From Bdellovibrionales bacterium (GTDB lineage: Bacteria; Bdellovibrionota; Bacteriovoracia; Bacteriovoracales; Bacteriovoracaceae), in assembly GCA_018646675.1 (NCBI GenBank), contig JABGUH010000014.1:62001-126000 (forward strand): a stretch of 64,000 bases of DNA, written 5' to 3'. Of this stretch, positions 43,879-62,930 are shown one piece after another. Each line of letters starts with the position of its first letter. The stretch's first letter is position 1. The notes beneath the pieces were generated by a model, which worked only from the letters and a program-made list of their open reading frames with translations, did no database searches and was not told the DNA's origin. The translations under genes and the position numbers were made by a program.

Positions 43879-43989
43879 TTATGGCTATTTATGGATACGT
43901 TTTTGGACATTTGGTCCAAATGCGGTTCGCTAGAATCGCTAAATAGCAATAATTGCGAAACAATTACATAGGGTTAAGAGGTTTGGGTT

Positions 43990-44025
43990 TTTCATCATAC
44001 TTCATATTGTTTCATCTATTTCATC
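43990..44025 (+). repeat. TTTCATC repeats at the left end of the island
   Basis: TTTCATC occurs at 43990-43996, 44010-44016 and 44019-44025. The same heptamer is repeated three times at exact 10-bp steps in each 143-bp direct repeat. They could be binding sites for a recombination protein. Nothing else is seen in 43879-44102. Confidence 0.4.
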
Positions 44026-44102
44026 GGTTCAAGCGAACAATTTGTTGTGGCACTCCAGTCGCTTGCAATTGGGGCTGTTCGTACGAATACAGGGTTTTAG
44101 AT

Positions 44103-44131
44103 AAAAAAAGCCCCGCTATTGCGAGGCTTTG
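44103..44131 (-). terminator. Rho-independent terminator behind a tRNA-like fragment
   Basis: On the minus strand AGCCTCGC-AATA-GCGGGGCT forms an 8-bp stem followed by seven T (44109-44103). It ends no gene in the window and is best explained as the original terminator of a tRNA gene whose 3' end is at 44137. Confidence 0.7.
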
Positions 44132-44136
44132 AAAAT

Positions 44137-44154
44137 TGGTACTCCCAAGGGGAG
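44137..44154 (-). other. tRNA 3'-end-like fragment, candidate attachment site
   Basis: Minus strand TCCCCTTGGGAGTACCA reads as T-stem, acceptor strand, discriminator A and CCA. No T-loop or rest of a tRNA precedes it. Together with the terminator behind it, it looks like the 3' end left behind when an island inserted into a tRNA gene. Confidence 0.4.
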
Positions 44155-44171
44155 ACCGCATTGTTAACAAT

Positions 44172-44314
44172 TTAGCCCTGTAATATCGACATTTTAGCAA
44201 TAATATTCACAGCTTGCAGATCTTCTCTCTTCATTGGTTTTCATCAAATTTCATCAGTTTTCATCAAAAATTATGGGTAAAATTATGGGTAGTTTTTGAA
44301 AATCTGGGAGTGCC
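44172..44314 (+). repeat. 143-bp direct repeat, left copy
   Basis: Matches 47528-47670 in the same orientation at 132 of 143 positions with no gap. It contains three TTTCATC heptamers 10 bp apart (44239, 44249, 44259), two TATGGGTA boxes 12 bp apart and ends in GGGAGTGCC; a further GGGAGTGC follows at about 44322. The two copies enclose a four-gene cassette. Confidence 0.9.
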
Positions 44315-44365
44315 AAAAGATGGGAGTGCTCTTGTTACGAGAGAGTGTGTATTAAAAATGTGTAC

Positions 44366-44393
44366 TTTACATACACACGCCATGTGCTAGTAT
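44366..44393 (+). promoter_or_regulatory. Promoter TTTACA-16-TAGTAT of the RHH-nuclease pair
   Basis: TTTACA (44366-44371), a 16-bp spacer and TAGTAT (44388-44393). The expected start point is 44399-44400, on the ATG of the first gene, so the message may be leaderless. The inverted repeat ACATAC/GTATGT-like sequence around 44370 is not perfect. Confidence 0.4.
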
Positions 44394-44398
44394 TACTA

Positions 44399-44605
44399 AT
44401 GTCTAATTTAGAGGAAAAAGTACTTTCAAGATTGAATAGAAGGCCTGAGAAAAAGGAAAGGTACAATTTTACTCTTCAACCATCAGTAAAAAGAGCACTT
44501 GCCTCATGGTGCAAAGAAAAGGGGCATAAAGAATCTGCTGCTCTGGAGGCAATGTTGCTAGAAATGCTTCCAAATAAGTTTTTAAACAAGTATAAGGAGA
44601 AATGA
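44399..44605 (+). CDS. Small ribbon-helix-helix-like protein
   Basis: 68 residues. ERYNFTLQPSVKRALASWCK followed by KESAALEAMLLEMLP has the strand-helix-helix layout of RHH DNA-binding proteins found in antitoxins and plasmid regulators. The ATG at 44399 has no ribosome site and lies at the predicted transcription start; a frame extension upstream to 44345 is less likely. Its stop overlaps the next ATG (ATGA). It probably regulates the nuclease gene behind it, or acts as its antitoxin. Confidence 0.6.
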   Translation: MSNLEEKVLSRLNRRPEKKERYNFTLQPSVKRALASWCKEKGHKESAALEAMLLEMLPNKFLNKYKEK

Positions 44606-45294
44606 TAAAGATGTTCCCAACAGAAGATGACCTAGTATCTGCATTTAAACATAAGTCTAAAATGTTTCTACAAACAGTTTGTAATCGAAGCGTCTCGCGT
44701 CATTTTATTATTCCAGAGTTTGATAGTTATACCGGAGTTGCAGACTTGATTCTTGGAACATATCGACCTTATTTGTCAAAAAAAAACAATAGAGAGATAG
44801 TAAATCTCAATTGGTTGTTCCCTCTTACAAATTTTGAAGAAGGGCAGATCTTTACTGTTCAAGAGTTTATGGAAAAATACAACTTTTCTAAAAGTTCAGC
44901 ACGATTAAAGTTAAAGGAATATATTGATGCTGGTTTTTTGCAAAAACTTGATAATAGATCTTTTGAAGTAATTAGAAAATATAATCTAATCTGTGACGAA
45001 GTGATAGCAGTTGAGGCAAAGCTTAAAAATTGGAAAAGGGCATTAACACAGGCAATTAGATATAAGAAAATATCTGACTACTCTTTTGTACTGCTTGATG
45101 AATCCTATGCTTCTTCGGCATTGTCTAATATTGAGTTATTTAATCATCATAATATTGGACTAATCACAATGAATAAATCCAAGTTTGTCATTCATACTTC
45201 TCCAGAAAAGAAGAATATAAAAAAAGCAGAATACTTCATTAGAGTAAATGAGGCCGCTTATGGATATTTTTCTATGACTGAATGTGCCTCATAA
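44602..45294 (+). CDS. Predicted PD-(D/E)XK nuclease with a winged-helix insert
   Basis: 230 residues. EFDSYTGVADLIL gives the metal-binding Asp48, and VIAVEAKLKNWKRALTQAIR gives Glu138-x-Lys140 followed by the Q-x3-Y helix, the core of the PD-(D/E)XK fold. Between them residues about 75-118 look like a winged helix (FTVQEFMEKYNFSKSSARLK). The start overlaps the RHH stop; an ATG three codons later is an alternative because GGAG is only 2 bp before the first. Its 3' end overlaps the convergent 387-aa gene by 23 bp. Likely the effector of the pair. Confidence 0.6.
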   Translation: MIKMFPTEDDLVSAFKHKSKMFLQTVCNRSVSRHFIIPEFDSYTGVADLILGTYRPYLSKKNNREIVNLNWLFPLTNFEEGQIFTVQEFMEKYNFSKSSARLKLKEYIDAGFLQKLDNRSFEVIRKYNLICDEVIAVEAKLKNWKRALTQAIRYKKISDYSFVLLDESYASSALSNIELFNHHNIGLITMNKSKFVIHTSPEKKNIKKAEYFIRVNEAAYGYFSMTECAS

Positions 45295-46435
45295 CTCGGT
45301 TCCATACAGGTAGATGTTCTCCATCGCAGTTTTTGTCAAAGAAAATTACACCAGCTGATTTTATGTCACTATAAAGTTGTGAAGCAGAAGTAATCCTGTC
45401 TTGGACAGAAGAACGTCTCTCTGTGAGTGTTTTTCCTGCTAGGTCAGCAAGGTCTTCTGACATTATCTTGAAGTGATGTTTGTATAGTTCTGGTTTTGTG
45501 AAATGGGGTCTTCCTGTAGTAAGGATTGATTCCATGTAAGGTGTCGATGTGTATATTCTTTCCCAGACCTCTGGGAAATCATCCTTTATTTCAATGGCGG
45601 TATCATATCTCATCCAGTTTAATAGTTTCGGTAGGTATATTCTCGGGGCTGGGCCTCTCATGTTTGAATCATTATCCAAGAACTTATCAATTGAGAAATT
45701 TCTTGTATTTTCGTAGGCACCAACTGTAACTCCATATGGATCGATTGCTGAGAGTAGGATTGACTCAGTGTTGCAATAACCAATTATAACATTTAGACCT
45801 GCATCTTGAAGTTCTCTAACGAAATTTATGTGTGGCAATAAGTTGTTGTAATCGGTTATTTGTTTGGATGACTCCCCAATTTGATTTAATAGATAAACCC
45901 CGTGTATGTTTGGATATGAGGTTATCCAATTTAGGATTTGTGTCCTGTATTCAGAGTCAGTAACCATGCTAATTGTTAGTGGAAGTGTAATGAATATTTC
46001 TTTTTCTATTCCAGCCCTTGCAATCTCATTGATAAAAGGTTCCACCGAAAACACTTTTTGTTTTGCGATATAATCTGTAACAAGCTCGGGGTGGAAGCGT
46101 GCAGGAATAATTATTTTTTCAAAATTATTATCAACTTGAAATTTCAAACATCTTTCGGCTGCTTGATGGGCAAGAGACTCAAAATCAATTGTACTAAAGC
46201 CGTCTGTAATCACTTCAGGGAAGAAGTCATAGGTTTGAAGCTTTAATTTTTGAGAGTCAGGAACATAGAATTGTGGATCAAAGAGACTGCTTTCTTTAAT
46301 TGATGTTGCAACAGACTCTATTTTATTCTTCTTGTAATGAACTGGACTAAAGATAATTCCATCTCCGGCATGGTCTGAGCTTAAACTTTCAATGTTCCAA
46401 TTTGTGTTGTGTCCAGCTTGTTGATAAATTTTCAT
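45272..46435 (-). CDS. Unknown 387-residue protein coupled to a Ser/Thr kinase
   Basis: No signal peptide or membrane helix. Repeated strand-helix units (EKIIIPARFHPELVTDYIA; IEKEIFITLPLTISMVTDSE; HGVYLLNQIGESSKQITDYN; GLNVIIGYCNTESILLSAID) suggest an alpha/beta barrel, but I do not recognise the family. The C-terminal part is helical and charged, ending FDKNCDGEHLPVWNRVM. It starts one base after the kinase stop, so the two are translated together and the protein may be the kinase's substrate or partner. Confidence 0.6.
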   Translation of the reverse strand: MKIYQQAGHNTNWNIESLSSDHAGDGIIFSPVHYKKNKIESVATSIKESSLFDPQFYVPDSQKLKLQTYDFFPEVITDGFSTIDFESLAHQAAERCLKFQVDNNFEKIIIPARFHPELVTDYIAKQKVFSVEPFINEIARAGIEKEIFITLPLTISMVTDSEYRTQILNWITSYPNIHGVYLLNQIGESSKQITDYNNLLPHINFVRELQDAGLNVIIGYCNTESILLSAIDPYGVTVGAYENTRNFSIDKFLDNDSNMRGPAPRIYLPKLLNWMRYDTAIEIKDDFPEVWERIYTSTPYMESILTTGRPHFTKPELYKHHFKIMSEDLADLAGKTLTERRSSVQDRITSASQLYSDIKSAGVIFFDKNCDGEHLPVWNRVMRHIQS

Positions 46436-46436
46436 A

Positions 46437-47366
46437 TTAACCTCTCATTTCTTCAAGTTTATTCTTAATTTCTTGGTAATTTCTAAACCGTTTATAGGGT
46501 TGAGGACTCAGCAGTTTATGTACAAATGTTTGTAGTGATTCTGATAAGTTTGAGTTTAAGTCATTAATTTTCTTAATATTGTTGGCAACTAAGGATTTCA
46601 TATAATCCTCTATCCCAATATCTTGAATAGTTCCAAATGGAAATTCACCCGTAAGAATAAAATAGGATAATATTCCAATAGAGAATTGGTCTGACTTGTA
46701 TGTAACCTCTGTTTTACTGTTAAACAATTGCTCTGGGCTTGCAAACTGGGGAGTACATGGAGATGAGCTGAATGGGCTCGTAATAACTTGTGTTCCATCA
46801 CGCATACTTTTCGCTATTCCAAGGTCAATTACGACAGGAGAGAGGTCACTTCTTACCAGAATATTATCTGGTTTCAAATCTCTGTGAACAATCTTTTTCT
46901 CCCATAATAAATTAAGGGCTTCGAAAACATTCAGCAAATATTGAATTAAAGTATCTTCAGTTTTAAGACGAACTATGTAATCATTAATAGGAATATGTTC
47001 TATATATTCTTCTACAGTCACAAAAAATGGACGCAAGTTAAAGCTTAAAACTTCATTGATTTTCTCTCCCTGTGTCTTAGGGTCAAAATTATCAACAAAA
47101 TAATTTAAATCTTCATCTGTGATAAATTGCGAGTGAAGGGGTTTTGGGAAATATTTAGAATCAATTTCACTTAAAATTTTCAACTCTCTTTGAATTCTTG
47201 CAACATTTGATGGGTATACAGGGCATGTTTTTAAAACAAATTTAGCGGAAGGATCATTGTTATTAGATGCTAAATAGACAACTCTTTGTCCTGATTCAAC
47301 AATCTTGGAAGTGGCCAAGTATTCACAGCCTACGAACTTAAGTAATTCGTTAGTTATATCCATCAT
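46437..47366 (-). CDS. Cytosolic eukaryotic-type Ser/Thr protein kinase
   Basis: 309 residues, kinase domain only, no membrane helix or sensor. The beta-3 lysine is Lys46 (FVLKTCP), the catalytic loop HRDLKPDN lies at 161-168 and the metal-binding motif is DLG (181-183) in place of DFG, which is common in bacterial kinases. The activation segment has SSPCTPQFASPEQL. AGAGAG precedes the ATG at 47366. It is the first gene of a two-gene operon within the repeat-bounded cassette. Free-standing kinases of this type are known in phage defence, but this pairing is not one I know. Confidence 0.85.
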   Translation of the reverse strand: MMDITNELLKFVGCEYLATSKIVESGQRVVYLASNNNDPSAKFVLKTCPVYPSNVARIQRELKILSEIDSKYFPKPLHSQFITDEDLNYFVDNFDPKTQGEKINEVLSFNLRPFFVTVEEYIEHIPINDYIVRLKTEDTLIQYLLNVFEALNLLWEKKIVHRDLKPDNILVRSDLSPVVIDLGIAKSMRDGTQVITSPFSSSPCTPQFASPEQLFNSKTEVTYKSDQFSIGILSYFILTGEFPFGTIQDIGIEDYMKSLVANNIKKINDLNSNLSESLQTFVHKLLSPQPYKRFRNYQEIKNKLEEMRG

Positions 47367-47527
47367 TTTATATCTCTCTTATCCATAATATATTAATCAT
47401 CTTTTTCCATATTAGCTCGAATAACTACTACAAATTTCACCATCGGTATAATCCCGATAACCCAAACTTTGCTGAAACTTGAAATAAAGACGAAAAAAAA
47501 ACCAAGAAAATTACGGATTAGATCAAC

Positions 47528-47670
47528 TTAACCCTGTAATGTCGACATTTTAGCAATAATATTCACAGCTTGCAGATCTTCTCTCTTCCTTGGTTTTCAT
47601 CGAATTTCATCAGTTTTCATCAAATTTTATGGGTAAAATTATGGGTGGTTTCCGAAAAGTTGGGAGTGCC
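47528..47670 (+). repeat. 143-bp direct repeat, right copy
   Basis: Same orientation as 44172-44314, offset exactly 3356 bp, 11 mismatches. TTTCATC heptamers lie at 47595, 47605 and 47615. The 3213 bp between the copies hold the RHH, nuclease, unknown and kinase genes. Confidence 0.9.
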
Positions 47671-47696
47671 GTTCAATTAAAGGGTGAGTATCGCCT

Positions 47697-48137
47697 CTAA
47701 CTTAAAGATAGTAGTTCCTTGACTAGCTCGTGATAATGCTCAAATTTTGTTTTTACATCCAACTGCTTTTTTACTCGCACATCTGCCTCTAGGTCTACAT
47801 TTTCGTGAAATGTCTTATTTCTATATTTTTTAAGGAGGGCCACATCTTCTTCATTTAAGCCCTTAAGAAAGGACTCGGTACGAGAGTGATTCTTTTTGAT
47901 AGCATCTTTGAATTTAGATCTCTCAAAATGCTCGATGCATATATGGAAAAATGAAAAGAGTAGAGATATTCTGAGTTCAAATTCTATTTTTTGATCGGTG
48001 TCATATTTTGTAGAGTCCTCACCATTTTTCGATAGGAAATTGCAAAGGTCAGTTTCTAATGTTTTCAAGTGTTCTATTTCACCGAAAAAGGATGCTAGGG
48101 CATTAGTTTCTTTGTCGTTATACTCATCGGGGCCCAC
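47697..48137 (-). CDS. HEPN-like protein, possible RNase
   Basis: 146 residues, all helical. LLKKYRNKTFHENVD contains R106-N-x3-H111, the R-x4-H motif of HEPN ribonucleases, placed in the last third as is usual. HEPN proteins are RNA-cleaving toxins or abortive-infection effectors. The start is a GTG at 48137 right after the stop of the 85-residue gene, so the two are coupled like a toxin-antitoxin pair, although the partner is not a recognised MNT antitoxin. The motif is short, so the assignment is tentative. Confidence 0.45.
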   Translation of the reverse strand: MGPDEYNDKETNALASFFGEIEHLKTLETDLCNFLSKNGEDSTKYDTDQKIEFELRISLLFSFFHICIEHFERSKFKDAIKKNHSRTESFLKGLNEEDVALLKKYRNKTFHENVDLEADVRVKKQLDVKTKFEHYHELVKELLSLS

Positions 48138-48395
48138 CTAATACTTCCATGTGAATTCAGATACAGCGTTGTTGAGATACTTTTCAACACCACTAAAGTC
48201 TTGCCATCCTGAATATGAGAGAGTTGAGCCATCTTTGGGACAGACTCTAAATTTTTTACCAGTTCTATCTACCTGTACAGAGAATGGATCAGAAACATTA
48301 AACTCGCCTCCCCAGATCTCGACAGAGCAATTGTGCATGTCCTGTGGCGTGTACTTGTCCTTAAATTTGCACCAGTTTTTTACATGGATTTCCAT
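48138..48395 (-). CDS. Small protein coupled to the HEPN-like gene
   Basis: 85 residues, no signal peptide. It has five aromatic Trp residues and a beta-rich pattern (CSVEIWGGEFNVSDPFSVQV, then FRVCPKDGSTLSYSGWQDFS). GAGGAG lies upstream of the ATG at 48395. Its stop is followed without a gap by the GTG of the HEPN-like gene. It could be the antitoxin or a modulator; the family is unknown to me. Confidence 0.5.
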   Translation of the reverse strand: MEIHVKNWCKFKDKYTPQDMHNCSVEIWGGEFNVSDPFSVQVDRTGKKFRVCPKDGSTLSYSGWQDFSGVEKYLNNAVSEFTWKY

Positions 48396-48553
48396 GCTGA
48401 CTCCTCATTACTTTTTGATATTGTACCCTATCTGGTAGCGAGGTGGGACTGTCTTTCCTGTCTGGCTTATTTTTCCGGAAAACGATAAATCAATGTAATT
48501 TCTTTAGATTTCTTATGTCTTGCCGAATTAGAGGTATAGGAAAAGGATAATTT

Positions 48554-49573
48554 ATGACAGTGCTTTATGACCCACAAAGAAAGGGTGTTTTTCAATTATT
48601 TGAACATGCACTCGAAAGCGACTTTGAGAAAGTCGTTTGCAGTCTAGCGGAACAAATTTTTGGAGAGGACACTATATATATAGATGTAAAAAAAAGAGTA
48701 AAGAGTGGTGATATTATAACCATTCCTGATGGTTATCTATTGGATGCAACAGATCCTGATCAACCAACCCTTTATGTAATAGAAAATGAAATTGTTTCCC
48801 ATGATCCTTTTAAGCACATAGGTATTCAACTGTTAAAGTTTGCAACATCTTTTGATGAGGGAAAAACAACTATAAGAAATTTTTTAATGGAGGAAATAAC
48901 AAAGTCCAAAGACAGTATGGAACTTCTTGAAAAGTTTACTAAAAAATCTTCCTATAGAAATATTGATAATTTTCTAGATGCAGCGGTCCTTGGGACATTC
49001 AAGGCTCTTGTGGTTATTGATGAGGCGAGACCAGAGCTTCATCACGTTCTTGAGAAAATAAATGCTGATATATCTGTTCTTGAACTAAAAACATATGTTG
49101 ATGATCAAAATAACTTTATGTACGAGTTTGATACTCTTTATGACGAAATTGATGCAACCTCTTCTCCTGATGTGAAGCCAAAGAGTTTGTCTAAAGAGGA
49201 AATAACTAGGCGACGAGAAAGAAGAGCGAAGTGTGACACTATCGTTGTGCCTGCTCGAAAGGAAGGGTTCAACGAGGTTTTTCTAGGAGAGAACAGATGG
49301 TTTGCAATTCGAATTGGGGCTGCGATGAAGGACAAGATAAAGTACATTGCAGCCTATCAAATATCTCCAATTTGTGCGATTACACACATCGCTAAGATTA
49401 AAGAAATAAGACCCTACCAAGATACAGGCAAATATGAAGTTGTTTTTGATGGAGCTGCCGAGGAAATTACTCCAGTAAAGATTAGTAACCCGGCCCAAAG
49501 TCCACAGTGTCCAGTCTATGTTGAATATCAAAAAATCGATAGTGCAGATAGCGTGGATGATTTACTTAAGTAG
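48554..49573 (+). CDS. Predicted PD-(D/E)XK-type nuclease
   Basis: 339 residues. IPDGYLLD (Asp59), then LYVIENEIVSHD (Glu77-x-Glu79) and HIGIQLLKFATSF form a nuclease-like core; the usual Lys of ExK is replaced by Glu. The C-terminal part (about 215-320) contains RWFAIRIGAAMKDKIKYIAAYQ, resembling a small nucleic-acid or ligand-binding beta domain. AGGAAAAGG precedes the ATG. It stands 100 bp before the large methyltransferase gene in the same direction, and may belong to the same defence unit. Confidence 0.5.
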   Translation: MTVLYDPQRKGVFQLFEHALESDFEKVVCSLAEQIFGEDTIYIDVKKRVKSGDIITIPDGYLLDATDPDQPTLYVIENEIVSHDPFKHIGIQLLKFATSFDEGKTTIRNFLMEEITKSKDSMELLEKFTKKSSYRNIDNFLDAAVLGTFKALVVIDEARPELHHVLEKINADISVLELKTYVDDQNNFMYEFDTLYDEIDATSSPDVKPKSLSKEEITRRRERRAKCDTIVVPARKEGFNEVFLGENRWFAIRIGAAMKDKIKYIAAYQISPICAITHIAKIKEIRPYQDTGKYEVVFDGAAEEITPVKISNPAQSPQCPVYVEYQKIDSADSVDDLLK

Positions 49574-49674
49574 TTAAGGGTTGGGCAAAAACTCCTCCCT
49601 GTTATAGAGGTAGGGTGATGCATTATAATTAGTGGGTAGTAATTAGATTAACTGTTTAAAATTACAGGTGAGAA

Positions 49675-52600
49675 ATGGTTTCAAGTCCGTTAGGTGTAAA
49701 ACTGTCAGGTGCTTCTTGTGAAAAAGAAGTTGAAAATATTTGGAATAAAATCCTAGGAATCTCGGACAAGATTAAATATATCAAAAATTCTGATGGGGTA
49801 TGGAATGAGCGATTGTTCGAATATAAATTTGACGCTAATTTTTATACTAAGGGTGAATGGAGACATACTTCCTATAAAGCTCTTGCCCAGGCAATTTACT
49901 ACTTAAAAAGAATTTCTAATTTATCTATCGGAGATTTGAAAAGCTTACCCGAGGTCCTTGTTATCTTAGATCGCAACGGTGGTTTCATGGTTCCATCCCA
50001 ACAGGTGGAAAGAATTATTGGTGACGCAGAGGATGGCTTAACCGTTGATTGGATGAGGCCTGCATCTAGCCCAGATACTCATCTTGTGGATTGGCTTGAA
50101 GCAAACAAATATTTTGAAAATTTCGGAATTAGTTATTACCAGTTTTCTTCTGATCAGCATATTAATGAGTTTAAGCGAGCTGTACTTGAGGCAGAACATG
50201 AACCAGCTAAAATTGAAATCGATGAAGAAAACTTCATAGGAATATATACTCTCTGGAAACAACTTTTTTTAGGCACTGAGGATAACCCAAGACAAATTGC
50301 AGACAATTATGTATTGGATATAAATTTAAAATTTCAATTTGTAGGGGATACAAATATTCTTATTAACTTGGAAACTGATCGACGATGGGAAGTTCCGAGG
50401 CAATCTTATGAAGATTTTTGGAAATATTACAAAAGACCTCCTTCAGTAAGTGTTCAGCAATATATATTGGCACATAAAGATTGTCTTTATGATACAGAGA
50501 CGAGAAATGACACTGGAGACTTTTATACTCCGATTGAAGTCGCTAAATTGTCTAACAAATACATCGATAAGTTTGTTTCCTTGAATGAGCAAGTAAATGC
50601 TCTATGGTGGGATCCTGCCGCAGGGGGAGCAAACCTATTTATTCAGTCTCCTCGAAAAGAAAATGTTATTCTCAGCACACTTGAAAAACCTGATTATAGA
50701 ACACTTAAATCAATTACAGCTTTTGGTAAAAGTACAATTGAAAGATTTAATTTTTTAAAAGAGAAATTTCCAAAATCAATTGATAAGCAACTTAAGGATA
50801 CTAGGAAAAAACCGCTTATATTTTTACTTAATCCTCCGTTCAATGATCAGTCAGGACACTCTAAGGGAAAAGAAGAGAACCCTAATCAAATTGATGAATC
50901 ATTTATTAAAAGTGAAGACATTGGGCAGATCTCCCTAAGGACAATACGGGGTGCTTATGTTAAATTTTTATATAAAATCAATTCAATAATTGAAGAAGCT
51001 GAAAGAACTAATGCTTATGTTGGACTTTTTTCAAAAACAGCTTGGCTGACGGGGAGCGATTACAAACAATTTTTTGAGTATTGGCATAAAAGATATGAGT
51101 TTTGTAATGGATTCATCGTTTCGAGTGAAGTGTTTAGAGGTACGAAAGGCAATTGGCCAGTTATGTTTTCGTTATGGAAAAAGCGAGATCGTATTTTGGA
51201 GAAAGCACCGTCATGTCAGATAAAACTTGATATTTTCAACAAGAGTCTAGAGAAAATTGGAATTAAAAAATATCATGCCCCCAGTGACTGGCAAATCAGA
51301 CTCCAGGATACAATAGATAGAGAGTGTTTAAAAAAACTAAAGAAAAAGAAGTTTGTCCCATTAAAAAATGAATATCAAGTTTATGACTCGGGGAAAATTT
51401 ATTGTCAGCATTTACACGAAGGATCTTTTGGATACTTAAGGACAATATCAAATGATATACAAAATTCAGGTAGTGGATTAATTTTAATGTCTGCACCATA
51501 TGGTGGATCTAATGCTAATGGAGTAAGTGTTGTAAAGGAAAACTTTGAATCGGCTCTATTGGTTTATGGCCTTAGAAAGTCTGTCCCACAGGAATGGCAT
51601 AACGATAAAGACGAGTTTACGTTATCGAATGAATTAATCAAAAGTAGCAAGTTTGGTCAATTGAAGAGAAAGGCTGTCTTATGGTCTATTTTGGAAGGCG
51701 GTTACACATCAAGTCTTGGGAAAGTGAAGTGGGATGGAAGTTCATATGATGTAAGAAACGAATTTTTTGCGATGCCTTTATCAGAGTTAACTGAAATTAG
51801 TGGAATAGACTCATCTAAACTTCCAAGTGATGATACAGTCGCATCAAAATGGGTTGAAGAAAATAGGTCAAACTTCACACTGCTGGAACTTGAGTGTCTG
51901 AACGCTTACAAAACTTTAATGATATACACATATGAATCAGGGTTGCGTTTAAATGGAGATGTTAAGAGAAAGGTTATGATGCCAGATGCCAGTCCAAGAC
52001 AGATCATAAATGGAATTTATCGGCATTCAGAAAAGCTCTCACAAGAAAACAAGGGTGTACTGGAAACATATTTAAGATTGGTTAAAAAACTTCAGGATAA
52101 TTTGCGATCTCTCGTATATAGATATGACATTATTTCAGAAGCAATTTTCTTTCAAAGTGAAAGCAACCCTACTGGAACACCTCCAAAGAATGGAGATGTA
52201 TTGCCATTTACTCCGCAAACAAACTTTGACAAAGTTCTTGAAAAGAGGCTCGCTTTAACTAGTTATATCGTGTCCAATTTAAAAAGCGATCCCAATCTGG
52301 GAAGGGTTAAACTCGCAAAAATATTTTATATGTGTGATGTAATATCGACCCATGATTTCAGAACTAAATACCTTAGAGAAGCGAATGGTCCTCTTGATCA
52401 AGGACTTATATATAATAAGAAAAATGGGTACGAACGATTGTCTTCCACGTATCAAATCTTTCAAACGAAAGAGGAGAAAAAAGGGAGAGTTACTCGTTAT
52501 GCTTATATACCTGATGAAAACATTAGGCCCATGGTCGCTAGAGCAAGGACTCTTTTTGATAAAGACCTTGCATCATTTGATTGTATTATCAAAATATTTA

Positions 52601-52869
52601 AGAAGTTAGATGTTCGACAAAGTGAAATCGTTGCAACGCTGTACGCATGCTGGAACGATCTTATAAATAAGAAAGTGAAAGATATTTCTGATGCTATGAT
52701 TGTTGATGAATTCAAAAATAATTGGCATGAAGATAAAAAAGACTCTCGGAAATTCCCAAAAGGGAAGTTGATGCTTGCTTTGGGATGGATGAGGAAGAAC
52801 AATCTTATTCCTCTAGGAAAAGGGAAAGTCGTTAAGCCAAAGCCATCAAGGGTTATTGTTCCGTTCTGA
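49675..52869 (+). CDS. Restriction-modification fusion: nuclease-like N-terminus with N6-adenine methyltransferase
   Basis: 1064 residues. Residues 40-80 carry Asp40...Glu49-Tyr-Lys51 and the AQAIYYLKRI helix, consistent with a PD-(D/E)XK nuclease domain. The SAM-binding motif I is WDPAAGGANLF (Asp313) and the catalytic motif IV is LNPPF (386-390), which define an N6-adenine methyltransferase of the gamma class. The C-terminal half (about 600-1064) would contain target recognition. The layout resembles type IIG enzymes, which cut and methylate in one chain. The start ATG follows AGGTGAGAA. No separate specificity subunit is adjacent. Confidence 0.65.
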   Translation: MVSSPLGVKLSGASCEKEVENIWNKILGISDKIKYIKNSDGVWNERLFEYKFDANFYTKGEWRHTSYKALAQAIYYLKRISNLSIGDLKSLPEVLVILDRNGGFMVPSQQVERIIGDAEDGLTVDWMRPASSPDTHLVDWLEANKYFENFGISYYQFSSDQHINEFKRAVLEAEHEPAKIEIDEENFIGIYTLWKQLFLGTEDNPRQIADNYVLDINLKFQFVGDTNILINLETDRRWEVPRQSYEDFWKYYKRPPSVSVQQYILAHKDCLYDTETRNDTGDFYTPIEVAKLSNKYIDKFVSLNEQVNALWWDPAAGGANLFIQSPRKENVILSTLEKPDYRTLKSITAFGKSTIERFNFLKEKFPKSIDKQLKDTRKKPLIFLLNPPFNDQSGHSKGKEENPNQIDESFIKSEDIGQISLRTIRGAYVKFLYKINSIIEEAERTNAYVGLFSKTAWLTGSDYKQFFEYWHKRYEFCNGFIVSSEVFRGTKGNWPVMFSLWKKRDRILEKAPSCQIKLDIFNKSLEKIGIKKYHAPSDWQIRLQDTIDRECLKKLKKKKFVPLKNEYQVYDSGKIYCQHLHEGSFGYLRTISNDIQNSGSGLILMSAPYGGSNANGVSVVKENFESALLVYGLRKSVPQEWHNDKDEFTLSNELIKSSKFGQLKRKAVLWSILEGGYTSSLGKVKWDGSSYDVRNEFFAMPLSELTEISGIDSSKLPSDDTVASKWVEENRSNFTLLELECLNAYKTLMIYTYESGLRLNGDVKRKVMMPDASPRQIINGIYRHSEKLSQENKGVLETYLRLVKKLQDNLRSLVYRYDIISEAIFFQSESNPTGTPPKNGDVLPFTPQTNFDKVLEKRLALTSYIVSNLKSDPNLGRVKLAKIFYMCDVISTHDFRTKYLREANGPLDQGLIYNKKNGYERLSSTYQIFQTKEEKKGRVTRYAYIPDENIRPMVARARTLFDKDLASFDCIIKIFKKLDVRQSEIVATLYACWNDLINKKVKDISDAMIVDEFKNNWHEDKKDSRKFPKGKLMLALGWMRKNNLIPLGKGKVVKPKPSRVIVPF

Positions 52870-52947
52870 TTTTTTAAAATGAAAAAAATAAAGGTTTCTC
52901 AAAGTTACGATCAAGGCATTCGCCCCTTGTTCTTAAAAAAAAGATTG

Positions 52948-53103
52948 TTAATCACTTGAAAGACTTCTTTTCTTTAGTTTAACGGTTAATCCAATATTGT
53001 CGGGCTTTTCTTTTAATCTTTCTCTTAGTTTCTTTTTGAGTTTTCCTAGCCTTTTATCATCTGAGAGGGTTCTTTCATCTTTTTTACTGTTTTTTGCATC
53101 CAT
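52948..53103 (-). CDS. 51-residue basic protein behind the DNA methyltransferase
   Basis: ATG at 53103 with AAGGA 8 bp upstream; the gene begins 16 bp after the methyltransferase stop on the same strand. The product is highly charged (KKDERTLSDDKRLGKLKKKL then REKLKEK-like basic helix) with no hydrophobic core segment longer than ten residues. A good ribosome site and tight spacing argue that it is real. It could bind DNA or the methyltransferase; function unknown. Nothing else is seen in 52870-53119. Confidence 0.5.
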   Translation of the reverse strand: MDAKNSKKDERTLSDDKRLGKLKKKLRERLKEKPDNIGLTVKLKKRSLSSD

Positions 53104-53119
53104 GATATTTCCTTTTAAG

Positions 53120-53893
53120 TTAATCAATTCTGGGAATTAAATATTGACCAGTTTCAATTCTGCTGTTTGCAAACTGACAATACTCATCAACAATTTCAGA
53201 GCCGATATAATTTCTTTCTAAATCTTTTGCAACATAGGCAGTTTGACCAGATCCCACAAAAGGATCACAAATGAGGTCACCTTTATCTGATGAGTACTCT
53301 ATCATCTTCTTAATGAGGTCATATGGAAGCCTTGTTGGCGTTTTAAGACAGTTTTTCCAGTACTCCCTCTTGATATCCCAAACGCTCTCTCTGTCAGCAT
53401 AATTAAGGGATTTGCCACCTTCGTCTCTGTGTTTCTTTGGGTGCCTGCAGAATGGGTGATATTTCATTTTCTTAGGATTTTTAGCAACCATAAGTATATG
53501 ATAATGACTGTTGACCCATTTCTTGGTGGTGTATACTCCAAAATTGTATTTCCAAACAAGACTATTAATTAAATGAAAGCCAACTGTGTCTAGGGCATTT
53601 AGAATATGCCTGAGATTAGTAAAGCCACTCACAATGTACATTGTGCCGTCATCTTTAAGCACTTTATATACCTCTCCTATCCACTTCTCCGTAAAGTCTA
53701 GATAATTGTCAGGTGAGACCTCCTGATACCCTTTTAAGACATTCTCTGGGGCCCGATTGTAGGTTTCATGGTCATGACTGAAATTAATACCATAGGGAGG
53801 GTCTGTAATGATTAAGTCGACAGACTCTTCATGCATGTTGCTCATAAGATCTATGCAGTCTGTGTTGTAAATGTTGTTTGATTTAATCTCCAT
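53120..53893 (-). CDS. Site-specific DNA methyltransferase (DPPY type)
   Basis: 257 residues. The catalytic motif IV DPPYGINFSHD comes first (Asp31-Tyr34) and the SAM-binding motif I (DPFVGSGQTAYVA) comes near the C-terminus, the order of beta-class N6-adenine or N4-cytosine methyltransferases such as M.MboII relatives. It would protect host DNA, pairing with a nuclease; the best local candidate is the gene at 54583. It is the fourth gene of a leftward operon. The target sequence cannot be told. Confidence 0.88.
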   Translation of the reverse strand: MEIKSNNIYNTDCIDLMSNMHEESVDLIITDPPYGINFSHDHETYNRAPENVLKGYQEVSPDNYLDFTEKWIGEVYKVLKDDGTMYIVSGFTNLRHILNALDTVGFHLINSLVWKYNFGVYTTKKWVNSHYHILMVAKNPKKMKYHPFCRHPKKHRDEGGKSLNYADRESVWDIKREYWKNCLKTPTRLPYDLIKKMIEYSSDKGDLICDPFVGSGQTAYVAKDLERNYIGSEIVDEYCQFANSRIETGQYLIPRID

Positions 53894-53943
53894 CTCTTAC
53901 ATCCTTACTTAAGTTGATGCAAGAGATTCAAATTAGTGAATTA

Positions 53944-54573
53944 TCAAAATGGAGGTATTTCCTCTAGGTGTTCTTTTAAAATTTCTTTTACTTGCTCTGG
54001 CTTTATATCTGCTTTGCAGTTAGGACCAAATATGTCCATTAGGTTTTTATCAAGTCGTATGTGCTTATTACTTGTGACAAGATTTTTAGAGATAACATAG
54101 TTTGAAAACAGGTCCCACATACTGAGATTATCTAATGGGGCGAGGCCTACAATTTTTGCTAGGGCATAGGAGGGGGTAAATTTTAAGGTACTTTGGATTT
54201 CATAGTTATTAATCTCGCAATCAATCTTCTTTGCAACGTTAGATAGTCCTAATGCCTTACTGTAAACGTTAAAAATTCCGTCTTTATACTCAAAATCGTG
54301 AGCATTTGGATTTTTTTGAAAATCTTTAAAATGCATGGATCTTTCAATTCTAACTTGTGGAATATTTCCAAAAAATGAGTGAACAGAACCAATCTTAATG
54401 ATGAGAGTCGAGTGTGACCCAACCCTTCGTTGTATACCAATATAATCCCTTGGCGATCCTCCCATAATGAAGTCAATGGATTGCAACTCCTTCTTTGGAA
54501 TCAGAAAGTACTTATCTTTGTTTATATTTCTTAACTCTAGAATCAATTCTTCATATAGTTTTTTAAATGCCAT
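53944..54573 (-). CDS. SWIB-domain protein in a methyltransferase operon
   Basis: 209 residues. The C-terminal 80 residues (YALAKIVGLAPLDNLSMWDL, FSNYVISKNLVTSNKHIRLD, KNLMDIFG, then VKEILKEHLEEI) fit the SWIB/MDM2 fold: Trp in the first helix pair, the NLV...LD-x-L-x-x-IFG core and the final helix with HL. SWIB domains are mainly known from eukaryotic chromatin proteins and from chlamydiae. The N-terminal 120 residues are of unknown family. AGGAGGG precedes the ATG at 54573. It lies between the candidate nuclease and the methyltransferase. Confidence 0.6.
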   Translation of the reverse strand: MAFKKLYEELILELRNINKDKYFLIPKKELQSIDFIMGGSPRDYIGIQRRVGSHSTLIIKIGSVHSFFGNIPQVRIERSMHFKDFQKNPNAHDFEYKDGIFNVYSKALGLSNVAKKIDCEINNYEIQSTLKFTPSYALAKIVGLAPLDNLSMWDLFSNYVISKNLVTSNKHIRLDKNLMDIFGPNCKADIKPEQVKEILKEHLEEIPPF

Positions 54574-54582
54574 AACACCCTC

Positions 54583-55101
54583 CTAAATAAAGTGGTCAAT
54601 CGGTTTTGTGATTTCAGCAAAAACTCTTCTTGATATACAGACGCTTTTAGGTGAGTTACTTCTAACTTTTAGATTTTTCTTAAAGTCTTCAAGGGATATC
54701 CCAACTAAGCCATAGGTTTTGCCTTTAAATCTATAGGTTATTTTAAATGCATTATGCTGATCTTTATTTTTGAGCAGATAGGCATACATAAAAACAGGCT
54801 CAATATTAACACCATTATTCCTGAACTCCTTTTGCCAATTCTCTAGACCAGTGATGTCTTGCTCTAATATCCAGTTTTCCCACAAATTAGAAGGAGCACT
54901 GTCATATCCAAATTGCTTGCCCTTTACGTCTAAAGCAATAACGCTCTTTTTGCTATTGATCAGAAAATCGAAATTTTTAACTTTCTGATTGTTAGCAAAT
55001 ACTTTTTTACCTTCATTTATTGCCATGTAACTTATTTTCTTTTCGATGAAATATGCCTCTACAGCATTTTCGTAATGACTATGATTTCCAGTTCTCTTCA
55101 T
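54583..55101 (-). CDS. Candidate restriction endonuclease (PD-(D/E)XK-like)
   Basis: 172 residues from the ATG at 55101, which follows GAGGAG; a longer frame to 55137 lacks a site. HYENAVEAYFIEKKISYMAI opens with the helix typical of restriction-like folds, then KNFDFLINSKKSVIALDVKG supplies an Asp and a D-x-K catalytic pair. The position in an operon with a DNA methyltransferase supports a role as the cutting partner. Recognition sequence and activity are unknown. Confidence 0.55.
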   Translation of the reverse strand: MKRTGNHSHYENAVEAYFIEKKISYMAINEGKKVFANNQKVKNFDFLINSKKSVIALDVKGKQFGYDSAPSNLWENWILEQDITGLENWQKEFRNNGVNIEPVFMYAYLLKNKDQHNAFKITYRFKGKTYGLVGISLEDFKKNLKVRSNSPKSVCISRRVFAEITKPIDHFI

Positions 55102-55105
55102 TTTT

Positions 55106-55459
55106 TTACTCCTCGTAAACTTTAATAAAATTTGCATCTAAAAATTTAACTATTGCAGGGGTGTTACCAACACCTTCTCCATACTCTTCATGGGTGTTAC
55201 AAAATACTCTTATTTCTTTGTGCCTACAGGAATGTTCTTTAAAGATGTTTCCAGCGAAGTAGATTTCACCATCGGGGAAGCAATTATTGATGCCGTTAAT
55301 ACGCTTAAAGTATGTAGGGGTAGAGTTGTCGAAACCTCGATACTTCTCACTATCTCCAGTCTTAAGGGCCACCTTGTTTGCTAACTGAATTTTTTGCATG
55401 TCTTTTCCTTCTTTTTCCATCAGTACAATTTTTTTCATGTTTCTTTGCTTGCTGGTCAT
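55106..55459 (-). CDS. Unknown small protein, first gene of the methyltransferase operon
   Basis: 117 residues from the ATG at 55459, which has a perfect AGGAGG site; a longer frame to 55483 is not needed. After a basic N-terminal helix the chain has three cysteines and a beta-rich middle (GINNCFPDGEIYFAGNIFKE, then HSCRHKEIRVFCNTHEEYGE). Its stop overlaps the ribosome site of the nuclease gene. It could be a controller or accessory protein, but no helix-turn-helix is visible. Confidence 0.5.
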   Translation of the reverse strand: MTSKQRNMKKIVLMEKEGKDMQKIQLANKVALKTGDSEKYRGFDNSTPTYFKRINGINNCFPDGEIYFAGNIFKEHSCRHKEIRVFCNTHEEYGEGVGNTPAIVKFLDANFIKVYEE

Positions 55460-55615
55460 ATAAACCTCCTTTCTTAGACTCACTGTATCAAATCATGCGT
55501 ATTATTCAACATAAAATCTTTTGCTGAACAAATACTGTGTAAAAAATGCACATTAATTTCTTAAGCTGATGAATTTATGTAGAACATTTAGACAGTTGAA
55601 TGTAAAATAATCTGT

Positions 55616-55831
55616 ATGAAACCAAAAAAACTAAAAACCCCTGCCGATTACCCTGTCTTGAGATTTACGACTACTCACGATGTATATAATGACCTCATGA
55701 AGAGAATTGAAACACTTGCTCAGTTTCATAACGAAAATATCAAAGAGGGTGATCGTCGCTTTAGAAATAATGACATTGCCATAGAAGCCCTTATTAAAGG
55801 GCTATCCATCCTTGAAAAAAAGGTAAAATGA
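55616..55831 (+). CDS. Small ribbon-helix-helix-like protein
   Basis: 71 residues. PVLRFTTTHDVYNDLMKRIE supplies a strand and first helix, and FRNNDIAIEALIKGLSILEK the second helix, like RHH DNA-binding proteins. It is divergent from the methyltransferase operon, so it may repress that promoter or its own. No ribosome site is visible before the ATG. A 15-bp tRNA T-arm-like sequence (GCAGGTTCAAGTCCT) follows its stop at about 55837. Confidence 0.5.
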   Translation: MKPKKLKTPADYPVLRFTTTHDVYNDLMKRIETLAQFHNENIKEGDRRFRNNDIAIEALIKGLSILEKKVK

Positions 55832-55863
55832 GGCTGCAGCAGGTTCAAGTCCTTCTTTTTTCT

Positions 55864-55879
55864 ATCTAGGACTATTTCT
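55864..55879 (+). repeat. Short direct repeat, left copy
   Basis: ATCTAGGACTATTTCT matches 62931-62946 at 15 of 16 positions in the same orientation. The two copies enclose the recombinase, the two-gene module and IS66, so they may be the ends of a nested element. At this length chance is not excluded. Confidence 0.3.
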
Positions 55880-55943
55880 CTATTATTTTTTTTGACACAA
55901 ATAAACTTCAATATTGGGCATATTGCTCGAGGGAGAGAAGTTT

Positions 55944-57056
55944 ATGGATGTTTTTCAGATAGCCTATCATCGCATCAAAAAGGAGAGGGCCAAGAGTTTA
56001 TATCAATTCGCCCTTGCTGATGTTGAGTTTTTTTTTAAATTGTTGTCTACAAGTGAAGGTCAAGCAGCTTTTATGACCAGCGGTCTTATTTCTTCAGAAT
56101 TAAGACTGAGTTCAGTAGGTATTCTTGGACTCATTACGGATCAGGAGTGGGCCATGATATTGCTATCGAATAACGTAAAAAATATGTCTCAATGGCTTAG
56201 TCGCTTTGATTATTGCTTTGTAAGAAGGTTTTTTCACCTGAAAGCGAAATGTATTGAAGTTTTTTTAAGTCGCTATCTCTCAAAGAAGTATCACGGGTTC
56301 AACAGGAGGCAACTGATTGACCTGTTTGTAGAAAATGAAGATGTGCTTTTTTATAGAGATATTTCACCAGACTTAAGATATGCACTGAATCGAGCAGGAG
56401 GCAAGACAGTTGTCTTGAACATTTTGAGAAGTCGACAGTCTCGATCATTTTACAAAAAGAAAAAACATGATTATTTCAAGAAAGGTTATAGTCTTGAGCT
56501 TGATGATGTGAAGCGTTTCTTTATTGAAAATGACATCAGCTCGCACGAAGATCTTTATCGAGCCAACGGGTATTTGTACAGTTCGCTAATTAAGAAAAGT
56601 GGATTCGTAGAAGATATGCTTGAGCTGATGAAATCCGAGTACGGTTTTGATGTTGACCTAGTTAAAAAAGGGGTCCAGCGAAGTATAAATGAGTCACCAC
56701 GAAAGATTGCAGAATCCTTACTTGTGAGATTCTTAAAGATTGGTTTGGTTTCATGCCCAAATATAAGGAAATATGATCGAAAAGTTGGGCAACATCTTTC
56801 CCATTATGGGGACTATGAATTTGTTAAATTGTATATAGACATTTCTCTATCTGGCGGGTTTGAAGAACTACCTAAGTACAAGCAGGTAAAAGTATTGAAG
56901 TGGTCAGTAATAAAAGCTTCCCAATATCTAATCGTCTTGGAGATTCCCGTGGATGAAGAAGTGAGGAGAGGTGGTTTTTTGGCATTCAAATCAAATGATT
57001 ATTGCTCAAGGGTGCAAGAAATGGTTGCCCAGAAGATTACCGCTGTAACCTGTTGA
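55944..57056 (+). CDS. Unknown protein encoded before a tyrosine recombinase
   Basis: 370 residues from the ATG at 55944, which follows GGGAGAG; the frame is open 10 codons further up without a site. The chain is helical and basic, without signal peptide or membrane helix. RRFFHLKAKCIEVFLSRYLS and SRQSRSFYKKKKHDYFKKGY suggest nucleic-acid binding. It is followed in the same direction by the recombinase gene, which has its own promoter. It may be a recombination partner or a second divergent recombinase, but no catalytic set is visible. Confidence 0.55.
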   Translation: MDVFQIAYHRIKKERAKSLYQFALADVEFFFKLLSTSEGQAAFMTSGLISSELRLSSVGILGLITDQEWAMILLSNNVKNMSQWLSRFDYCFVRRFFHLKAKCIEVFLSRYLSKKYHGFNRRQLIDLFVENEDVLFYRDISPDLRYALNRAGGKTVVLNILRSRQSRSFYKKKKHDYFKKGYSLELDDVKRFFIENDISSHEDLYRANGYLYSSLIKKSGFVEDMLELMKSEYGFDVDLVKKGVQRSINESPRKIAESLLVRFLKIGLVSCPNIRKYDRKVGQHLSHYGDYEFVKLYIDISLSGGFEELPKYKQVKVLKWSVIKASQYLIVLEIPVDEEVRRGGFLAFKSNDYCSRVQEMVAQKITAVTC

Positions 57057-57139
57057 TAATAGTGCGTTTTTTTATAAATTGCGTAAATCATCACCTTAGA
57101 AGGAGGATTATCTATGATTTCAGTAGCTTGCTCAACTCC

Positions 57140-57168
57140 TTGGAATTAAAGGAAAAGTATGGTATAAT
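57140..57168 (+). promoter_or_regulatory. Promoter TTGGAA-17-TATAAT of the recombinase gene
   Basis: TTGGAA (57140-57145), a 17-bp spacer and a perfect TATAAT (57163-57168). Transcription from about 57175 leaves a 120-base leader with a CAGGC...GCCTG hairpin (about 57231-57255) before the start codon at 57297. Confidence 0.65.
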
Positions 57169-57296
57169 GCAGTGTGTTCGTTACGTAAGATTCCTGACTA
57201 AGTTACGCAGTGGCTAAGTTGCTGAAAATACAGGCGAAAGATGGGCAAGCCTGCACATTTAAGCTTGGTCAGGGATGTAACAATTTGGAGGTAGGT

Positions 57297-58904
57297 ATGG
57301 AGGTTCAGGGTGATACTTTAAAGGCAAAGACTCAGTCGATAAGGGCCAGAGTTCAGAAGTTTAGAGATAAGAAATTGAGGAAAATTAGAAGAAAAATGAT
57401 GGCTGCTCAGCGGTCATGGTATCGAATTAAAAAGCATGTTGTTGATAAAGATGGTGGAGTTCTTGAGGAATATCAAAAAACAAATCTATCATGGTTTTTT
57501 CTTCTTTGTGATACGAGCGGTATTTATTATGTTTTTCATCGCTTCTGGGATGAAGGAAAGGAGGAATGTGGTTCAGATTTTAGAACGTTTGACTCCGAGT
57601 CTGAGGCAAGGGAGTTTTTTCGGAAAACAAAAGATGGAAGTGCTGATGATGCGTGGGTAACAGTTGACGACAAGATTAGCCAGGCACAATCATTTATTAA
57701 GCGGTATCTTGATGAAAAAGAAAGTTTTTATCATTATCCTTTAATGAATTTAGATTTTATGTTTGCCTTGGCAGAGGTTTCTGAAAATGGATCCGCAAGC
57801 GATAAGGTTAAGGGGATAAGACGAAATTTAGCAAAACTACTCAAGGGGATTAGTTTTGATTGTAATGAAAGGCAGTATCCTCTTGTAATAAGAGAGATAT
57901 TAATGAGAATCGCAGGAGATGTTGGGGAGGAGGGTTTTGTAACTCAGGCGACTTATAAAACAAAGGCAATGGTTGTTTTAGGTATGGTCAAGATTTTATC
58001 TCAGTACACTGTATATCGAAATTTGGCTACTCAGATTATTTCAATGGAGAAGATGATAGGAGAGGTTCTTAAGGCAGAGTCTTATGATGAGAATAAGGAC
58101 TCAGGTACGATAGTAACAGGCGAGCATTTTAAATATATTGAAATTGTTCACCTACGTAAAATTCTTGATAAGGCATGGGCATTTAGTCCATATTTATACA
58201 ACTATATTATCCTCGGGCTCTCCTCTGGGTTGCGACCAAGTGAGCTTTGGAGGTTGCAAGATAATCATTGTCTGTTTGTAATTTCCGAAGGATTTCTTGA
58301 TTACAAGGCTGGAAGGTTAGTGAAAAAGACAAAGAAGAAGGCCGATACGAGCAAGTTGGTTAATCCAGCATTGTCAATTGTATCTAGATTGATATTGTTT
58401 CATGATAAAACATTTTATGATAAAAATTTTTTTAAAAAGAAGGCGGGGTCTTACAGGATGGACAGTTTAGATCTTGAGATCTATGTTGAGCGGTGCTTAA
58501 GAACAACCTGTGCTACAATGATGGCATATTGTGAAAAAATTGAGGGGCAAGGGAGAGCCTCTTTGAGAGATGCACAATATAAGCTCGGTCACATGACTTT
58601 GACAATGTTGCTTAATGTGTATGCTCGAAAAACTCCTCCTATCTCCTCTCCTATTGTTTATTTTGACAATTGGGGTGGTAAAATAAATATGAAAAACAAG
58701 CATGGGGAAAATATTTTATTAACCAAACATACAAATCTTTGGGATGCGTGGTTGCTCAATGACTATTTAGACAGAAAATTTTCAGATTTTAATAGTGATC
58801 CTGCCAAGAAAGATGCTTTGAAAGAGGTGGTCATAAAAGAATCTCGTGCTTTTAATGCGATAACATCTGGAGACGGGGTCAAGATTAAGTCATCAACATT
58901 TTAA
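57297..58904 (+). CDS. Divergent tyrosine recombinase
   Basis: 535 residues. The C-terminal catalytic domain has GLSSGLRPSELWRL (Arg313), RCLRTTCAT (Arg399 and Arg402), LGH (His432) and NVYARK (nucleophile Tyr442). The normal H-x-x-R box reads R-x-x-R, so the first His of the active site is replaced by Arg. The N-terminal 250 residues would form the arm- and core-binding parts. The ATG at 57297 has GGAGG five bases upstream and is preferred to a GTG at 57210. It may mobilise the DNA around it. Confidence 0.75.
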   Translation: MEVQGDTLKAKTQSIRARVQKFRDKKLRKIRRKMMAAQRSWYRIKKHVVDKDGGVLEEYQKTNLSWFFLLCDTSGIYYVFHRFWDEGKEECGSDFRTFDSESEAREFFRKTKDGSADDAWVTVDDKISQAQSFIKRYLDEKESFYHYPLMNLDFMFALAEVSENGSASDKVKGIRRNLAKLLKGISFDCNERQYPLVIREILMRIAGDVGEEGFVTQATYKTKAMVVLGMVKILSQYTVYRNLATQIISMEKMIGEVLKAESYDENKDSGTIVTGEHFKYIEIVHLRKILDKAWAFSPYLYNYIILGLSSGLRPSELWRLQDNHCLFVISEGFLDYKAGRLVKKTKKKADTSKLVNPALSIVSRLILFHDKTFYDKNFFKKKAGSYRMDSLDLEIYVERCLRTTCATMMAYCEKIEGQGRASLRDAQYKLGHMTLTMLLNVYARKTPPISSPIVYFDNWGGKINMKNKHGENILLTKHTNLWDAWLLNDYLDRKFSDFNSDPAKKDALKEVVIKESRAFNAITSGDGVKIKSSTF

Positions 58905-58948
58905 TATAATTAAGGCTAGTGGCATTAATTATGTCAAAGGATAATTCG

Positions 58949-59596
58949 TTACTGAAAATCAAGGTCTTCGAAAGACTTACCATAGTTGGGATTTAGTCTT
59001 CTTATTATTTCAGTAACTCTACTTTCAAGATTGTCAGCAACTTCCTTAGAGACATAAGATTTTTTCCAGAAATTACCAGCTTCTGGAGTTGTGTGAGCAT
59101 TTGCCCAAAGTTCAAAATTAATATGACTTTCCTTCCAAGTTTTTAGAACTTCATCAAAGAGGTCAATACCTTCTTTGTTTAGGTATGTGTCATATCGTGA
59201 ACGAACTTCAAATAGTGATGAAATCTCATCGTCCAGCTTATTCATTCTTGTTTTTCTTACTTCTCGAAGGTGGTCGGGATATGGTTGGTTAGGTTGCTTG
59301 TCAGGGTCTCCTTGTAGAGCAAATGTGCAAGTTACGTTGTACATTGAATGGATGAATGACCTTAGCATTACAAATGTTTTTATCACATCTTCCTTCTTTT
59401 CGAGGCTGATTTTTTTATTTTTTACTTTAATGAATTTTTCAATCCCTACCGTGGAGGCAATTAGAGCTGCTACTCCCGTGATAAATGTTCCGATTTTATC
59501 TAGATCAGTAACGCCGTTGCGATAGAAGTGAATAGAGATAATAGTAATTGGGGTAACGAAAATCATTAGGAGGTAAAATCTATAAAGCCAAATCAT
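58949..59596 (-). CDS. Two-helix membrane protein, second gene of an IS66-broken module
   Basis: 215 residues from the ATG at 59596, which has AAGGA 7 bp upstream; the longer frame to 59740 overlaps the previous gene and is unlikely. Two transmembrane helices lie near the start (IWLYRFYLLMIFVTPITIIS and FITGVAALIASTVGIEKFI), followed by a long helical cytoplasmic part. This shape recalls SLATT-type two-helix effectors of nucleotide-signal defence systems, but I cannot confirm the family. It follows the interrupted gene by 25 bp on the same strand. Confidence 0.6.
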   Translation of the reverse strand: MIWLYRFYLLMIFVTPITIISIHFYRNGVTDLDKIGTFITGVAALIASTVGIEKFIKVKNKKISLEKKEDVIKTFVMLRSFIHSMYNVTCTFALQGDPDKQPNQPYPDHLREVRKTRMNKLDDEISSLFEVRSRYDTYLNKEGIDLFDEVLKTWKESHINFELWANAHTTPEAGNFWKKSYVSKEVADNLESRVTEIIRRLNPNYGKSFEDLDFQ

Positions 59597-59621
59597 AAAG
59601 TTATCCTTTTTATATTTTATC

Positions 59622-60344: not shown

Positions 60345-60351
60345 TTGCTTC
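60344..60351. repeat. IS66 target-site duplication, left
   Basis: ATTGCTTC, repeated exactly at 62729-62736 on the other side of the element. Eight bases is the normal duplication for the IS66 family. Confidence 0.95.
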
Positions 60352-62921: not shown

Positions 62922-62930
62922 TTTTCTTCC

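Follow-up and report, generated by a model that had tools for sequence, protein, structure and literature searches.

A conserved gene triad for a kinase, a predicted TGT-fold protein and a predicted nuclease in an apparent tRNA-Glu island of a Bdellovibrionales bacterium

A 64,000 bp stretch of DNA of a Bdellovibrionales bacterium (bases 62001-126000 of contig C29, in a genome of 3.16 Mb; hereafter the window) contains three adjoining genes coding for a Ser/Thr kinase (KIN), a 387-residue protein with a predicted tRNA-guanine transglycosylase (TGT)-type fold (P387) and a predicted PD-(D/E)XK nuclease (NUC), which were found together in all 18 loci where this could be evaluated. We estimate at roughly one in two the probability that KIN, P387 and NUC constitute a single system of anti-phage defence; the kinase would then control the nuclease, and P387 would recognise a base.

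Organisation and linkage of the genes

The three genes and a small ribbon-helix-helix (RHH)-like gene lie between two copies of a direct repeat, in the following arrangement:

44399-44605, + strand: RHH-like small gene, 68 amino acids from ATG (the listed open reading frame (ORF), from GTG, has 86 amino acids)
44602-45294, + strand: NUC, predicted PD-(D/E)XK nuclease with inserted winged helix, 230 amino acids, called from predicted fold and invariant residues
45272-46435, - strand: P387, predicted TGT-fold protein, 387 amino acids, called from predicted fold
46437-47366, - strand: KIN, Ser/Thr kinase, 309 amino acids, called from a Pkinase match and catalytic motifs

These coordinates agree with the original prediction, made from the letters of this DNA, of two convergent gene pairs that touch or overlap within each pair: the RHH-like gene and NUC overlap by 4 bp, 1 bp separates KIN from P387, and the 3' ends of NUC and P387 overlap by 23 bp.

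Nineteen loci, including the window, were compared. Eleven came from scanning a profile against a single genome of each species, two (G017 and G082) from 143 relatives, two (G255 and G073) from a search of 368 genomes of the phylum, one from plasmids (the haloarchaeon Natribaculum breve) and two (L091 and L092) from viral contigs in IMG/VR. KIN adjoined P387 in 19/19 loci, the copy of L007 being cut by the contig end and that of L092 consisting of the C-terminal half only, and NUC adjoined them in 18/18 testable loci, since the G073 contig ends inside P387. The homologues, found together in bacteria, on the archaeal plasmid and on viral contigs, are thus far from being almost never neighbours, and the proposal that the kinase, the 387-residue protein and the nuclease form a unit was upheld. 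A convergent order, with KIN-P387 facing NUC, was observed in 15 loci (the 14 measured overlap by 9-36 bp at their 3' ends), and the order NUC-KIN-P387 on one strand in three (G082, the Natribaculum plasmid and L091). The distances of P387, NUC and KIN were correlated in Mantel tests uncorrected for shared descent, both over 15 loci (r 0.84-0.86; L007, L015, L071 and L092 omitted) and over 11 close loci (r 0.82-0.87), with none of 5000 permutations as high. Because of the adjacency of KIN and P387 in every locus and of NUC in every testable one, the two gene orders and the parallel divergence, we consider the three genes likely to be one system.

Searches from two starting members gave 292 and 249 homologues of P387, of which 120 each were listed; the 120 listed for the window protein were 51-84% identical to it, and over the alignment the identity to the window copy drops to 16%. 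The NUC search yielded 30 homologues, one of them the window's own; for 13 of the other 29, the length of the longest contig recurs among the P387 homologues listed, pointing to shared contigs. In the reverse check over the 368 genomes of the phylum, P387 was present in five and NUC matches at E <= 0.001 in 12 (4 strong, 1 partial and 7 weak); all four genomes with strong matches also carried P387, and the weak matches (E 1e-5 to 9e-4), mostly to the winged-helix part, were not counted. Two further observations concern single loci. In G012 (L076:163-3104), a 132-residue NUC-like ORF (E 4.8e-14) with a stop in the matched stretch adjoins two other small genes (194 and 210 amino acids); this NUC-type domain in a different gene set was not counted as a triad. 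In L007:329-1492, the P387 match extends (to 1492) past the end of a 370-residue ORF (1441).

The RHH-like gene had also been predicted to belong to the set, a claim that failed, because only 2/19 sources carry it (the window and L092), which rules out a four-gene unit. Its designation came from its appearance, weak matches (a RepA-regulator model, E 0.025; an Arc-like repressor, E 0.083) and its one homologue in L092, and it is likely a local regulator outside the conserved triad. That it forms with NUC a toxin-antitoxin pair stabilising the element, unrelated to KIN-P387, is very improbable: its overlap with the start of NUC and its recurrence in L092 would fit such a pair, but in 17/19 sources the RHH-like gene is missing while NUC stays with KIN-P387.

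Predicted properties of the three proteins

KIN matched Pkinase in Pfam (E 4.4e-31), and the VAIK-type lysine and the HRD and DxG aspartates were present in the window protein and in 17/17 untruncated copies, confirming the earlier kinase assignment. Its best kinase matches in PADLOC were PD-T4-6 (E 4e-33) and MAD6 (E 4e-34), although its score against the NCBIfam model of MAD6 was 89, versus a cut-off of 460.

NUC is predicted to have a PD-(D/E)XK core with an inserted winged helix of DNA-binding type, and the core fold together with E-x-K, formed by E138 and K140, and upstream acidic residues supports the PD-(D/E)XK call first made for the 230-residue protein. The predicted core resembles the restriction enzyme PaqCI and the mismatch enzyme EndoMS. 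Library matches were weak (phrog_984, E 0.0012; sce7726, E 0.0025), and PDB sequences compared with the NUC profile gave only four rows, at E 0.28-0.93. The likeness to PaqCI and EndoMS, which are DNA enzymes, argues against an abortive infection via RNA triggered by KIN, with tRNA as the target of P387 and RNA or host DNA as that of NUC. TGT proper has tRNA as substrate, and KIN matches the models of PD-T4-6, one of the abortive systems known to contain a kinase, but we regard this explanation as quite improbable.

P387 is predicted to adopt a TGT-type (beta/alpha)8 fold. TGT uses a nucleophilic aspartate and an acid-base aspartate. In a hand alignment of P387 with TGT, which is not a superposition, D53 fitted the acid-base Asp and the invariant G239 stood at the position of the nucleophilic Asp. 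The TGT zinc site CxCxxC...H was not found, and no cysteine was present in the invariant or near-invariant columns of 36 P387 sequences. P387 gave no match to PF01702 in the Pfam scans, none to the DpdA model in the library scans, and none when PDB sequences were compared with its profile; a viral scan with the window P387 alone gave no useful result, and neither did P387 in phage records. Matches to Glycoprot_B_PH2 (5/42 members, best E 7e-4), UvrD_C (4/42, best E 0.0045) and, in PADLOC, PtuA (E 0.0069) were judged to be due to chance. The second viral structure match of P387 came from Vibrio phage nt-1; for this phage a DpdA2 has been reported (PMC6884629), which may or may not be the matched protein.

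Because the invariant G239 replaces the TGT nucleophile in the hand alignment, P387 would more probably sense modified DNA than insert a base. DpdA, a TGT paralogue, inserts 7-deazaguanine into host DNA in Dpd systems, as described in PMC6884629, and a restriction-modification-like arrangement, with P387 acting in this way, NUC cutting unmarked DNA and KIN regulating either of them, would be in keeping with the predicted fold of P387 and the predicted winged helix of NUC. We consider it unlikely, however, in view of the glycine found by hand alignment at the nucleophile position, the lack of conserved zinc cysteines and the missing DpdA model match; moreover, no preQ0-pathway gene was recognised beside the window triad, the other loci not having been searched for such genes.

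A predicted island at the tRNA-Glu gene

The triad looks to be carried by a mobile island at a tRNA-Glu gene. ARAGORN found no tRNA within the window, and the stretch 44104-44153 matched C29:126870-126922, just past its right end. The features concerned are as follows:

L043:2407-2484 (C29:126906-126983), - strand: intact tRNA-Glu(ttc), 3' end towards the window, with tRNA-Lys next to it
44136-44153, - strand: far core, identical over 18 bp to the tRNA-Glu 3' end
about 44104-44130: second copy of a terminator-like hairpin, beside the 18-bp far core
63451-64000, + strand: start of a tyrosine recombinase gene, running to window-equivalent 64716 and adjoining tRNA-Glu
44136-64000: portion of the predicted integrative element that lies in the window (the full element, about 20.8 kb, runs on to window-equivalent 64922)
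44168-44314, + strand: direct repeat copy 1, read as the end region of the element with probable recombinase arm-type motifs
47524-47670, + strand: direct repeat copy 2, the inner copy, without an adjoining tRNA end

The recombinase gene (L043:952-2217), just inside the tRNA end, matched Phage_integrase (PF00589, E 5.7e-12). Since a recombinase beside a tRNA gene, a second copy of the tRNA 3' end on the opposite side and a terminator copy are the anatomy of a tRNA-targeting element, we propose an integrative element of this size. Homologues of the left flanking gene, sought in order to find an empty site, were present in 5/39 genomes (four beyond the window's own, with distant homologues), and no empty site came to light in this cursory search.

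The two direct repeats of the original prediction (143 bp, 132/143 identical) are real, and were found here as 147 nt copies, 92% identical and spaced by 3356 (second copy E 7.1e-56); the rest of the genome gave no further match at E <= 0.001. Each copy contains three TTTCATC motifs, and ATGGGTA occurs twice in copy 1 and once in copy 2; at the tRNA end of the element, ATGGGTA is found three times no more than 92 bp from the core, and one occurrence stands in a shared ATGGGTAAAA context. We infer that the repeat is the end region of the element and carries recombinase arm sites. Copy 1 begins 14 bp to the inside of the far tRNA core, and no such core adjoins the inner copy. The most economical explanation would be that two elements once stood side by side and that the outer one lost its recombinase end, with the triad as its remaining cargo; the end region of the island would probably have been duplicated through this arrangement and the partial loss of the outer element. 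TTTCATC motifs occur a third time, as an incomplete set, at 43989-44065 outside the far core, together with a GGCACTCC stretch; an older element may have left them behind.

The suggestion that the repeats are tied to the genes did not stand. A blastn comparison of flanks of up to 3 kb, several of them shortened by contig ends, covered 12 of the 18 other loci (L006-L016, of which L011 is from Methylophilus, and L044; G082, Natribaculum, G255, G073, L091 and L092 were left out). In these 12 nothing similar flanked the triad, and the repeats were rejected as part of the system. A flanking pair was detected only in L006 (32 bp, 91%, E 4e-7, beside a transposase-like ORF), which we read as a short dispersed repeat, and in the other 11 the matches had E 0.05 or weaker. 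A search of the 143 relatives at E <= 1 gave rows in 138 genomes, nearly all short; five genomes besides the window's own matched the repeat at E < 1e-3, the longest matches being about 85 bases at 72-74% (G066 and G029).

The remaining island contains methylase genes. Directly after repeat copy 2, a 146-residue gene (47697-48137) gave a weak PADLOC match to Cas13d (E 8.8e-5), probably by chance. The region 48554-52869, with a 339-residue gene weakly matching DpdI (E 0.0023) and a 1064-residue methylase-type gene (PADLOC Specificity_I, E 1.8e-22; N6_Mtase, E 1.6e-4), is likely another restriction-type system. At 53120-55483, an N4/N6 methylase (E 5.2e-44) is followed by three small genes, one with a weak SWIB-type match (E 8e-5), possibly a further restriction-modification set. 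The genes of 380 and 564 amino acids at 55914-58904 have no Pfam family, stretches of the 564-residue product resembling by eye a tyrosine recombinase, and IS66-type transposon genes (DDE_Tnp_IS66, E 9.5e-92) occupy 60423-62672.

Comparison with known systems

No known system with KIN, P387 and NUC was found in PADLOC, Pfam, NCBIfam or PHROGs, and the triad was not described in the literature searched, which reached neither preprints nor most subscription journals, so that a description may exist. Because of its absence from these libraries and searches we regard the triad as likely undescribed, in line with the earlier statement that no described defence or toxin system is known to have this set.

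Type IV CBASS has a TGT-like enzyme in an immune operon, for which our literature search gave no confirming paper; in contrast to it, no cyclase gene was recognised beside the window triad. Dpd systems also place a TGT-type fold in a conflict setting, but are described as clusters of more than 10 genes (PMC6884629), whereas the triad has three including a kinase, and P387 has no DpdA model match and apparently no nucleophile; DpdA with other dpd genes was not found at the window triad, the weak DpdI match lying outside it. TGT homologues have been recruited in a subset of BREX-related capture (BRC) systems (PMC12839542). These are reported there to be built on HerA/FtsK, PglZ and BrxC-like parts, none of which was recognised here, and TGT is optional in them, whereas the TGT-fold P387 is constant in the triad. 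PglW of type 2 BREX and DndF join a nuclease and a Ser/Thr kinase within one system, but are described (PMC12839542) with the domains fused in large proteins with ATPase partners, unlike the separate small proteins of the triad with P387. PD-T4-6 and MAD6, the closest kinase matches of KIN, are similar to it in the kinase domain, and KIN is always accompanied by P387; no BREX or other MADS parts were found among the nine window proteins scanned with PADLOC.

Possible function and significance

The patchy spread of the triad and its setting support a defence role. Besides the tRNA-Glu element and its methylases, the triad lies near a primase-helicase of TOTE type together with a recombinase fragment at tRNA-Met (L044), an Eco57I/MmeI-type enzyme (L067) and a recombinase-type ORF (L069). 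In L091 its surroundings include a PP2C gene and a DNA methylase, along with a weak match of baseplate type. Phosphatase-type genes adjoin it in 4/19 loci (L014, its near-copy L015, L067 and L091), which is suggestive, in these few loci, of reversible phosphorylation.

Several observations weigh against this interpretation. Foldseek gave no TGT among the 50 PDB matches listed for P387, the best being xylanases and aldolases, only weak viral matches for it (best E 1.1e-3), and no match for NUC at E <= 0.001. hhalign detected no sequence relation between P387 and 12 TGT sequences, which came from one phylum and had low diversity. To these are added the nature of the hand alignment and the possible part of shared descent in the Mantel correlations, both mentioned above. 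In L092 (7444-8004), P387, NUC and the RHH-like gene are complete and the kinase is halved, so that this locus may do without a kinase or may itself be a dead copy. Finally, several loci lie among ordinary genes, which, like the resemblance of NUC to EndoMS, would suit a module for DNA repair or gene control that mobile elements have spread; such a non-defence role is nevertheless hard to credit, given that only 5/368 genomes carry the module and that it occurs on a plasmid, in a viral contig and in tRNA islands adjoining restriction or conflict genes.

In the defence system that we favour, P387 would recognise or process a guanine-type base, most likely modified guanines in DNA (for example 7-deazaguanine), phosphorylation would be the relay between sensing and NUC, and KIN is predicted to switch NUC, as the putative DNA-cutting effector, on or off. 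In its most specific form, which we hold to be doubtful, the triad would be a new class of immunity in Bacteria and Archaea, where a nucleophile-less protein of TGT/DpdA fold reads hypermodified guanines in invading DNA and, via a kinase, licenses a winged-helix PD-(D/E)XK nuclease. 7-deazaguanine DNA is described as shielding phages from restriction (PMC6884629), and this would then be a dedicated answer to phages hiding behind it.

None of the four profile libraries used has a model recognising the P387 family, and for this large unnamed family a fold can now be predicted, along with a likely role beside two constant partners. If the triad is defensive, only three genes, present in Bacteria and on a plasmid of an archaeon, would combine a base-exchange-type fold with signalling by a kinase. 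The family also makes it testable whether cells sense 7-deazaguanine DNA.

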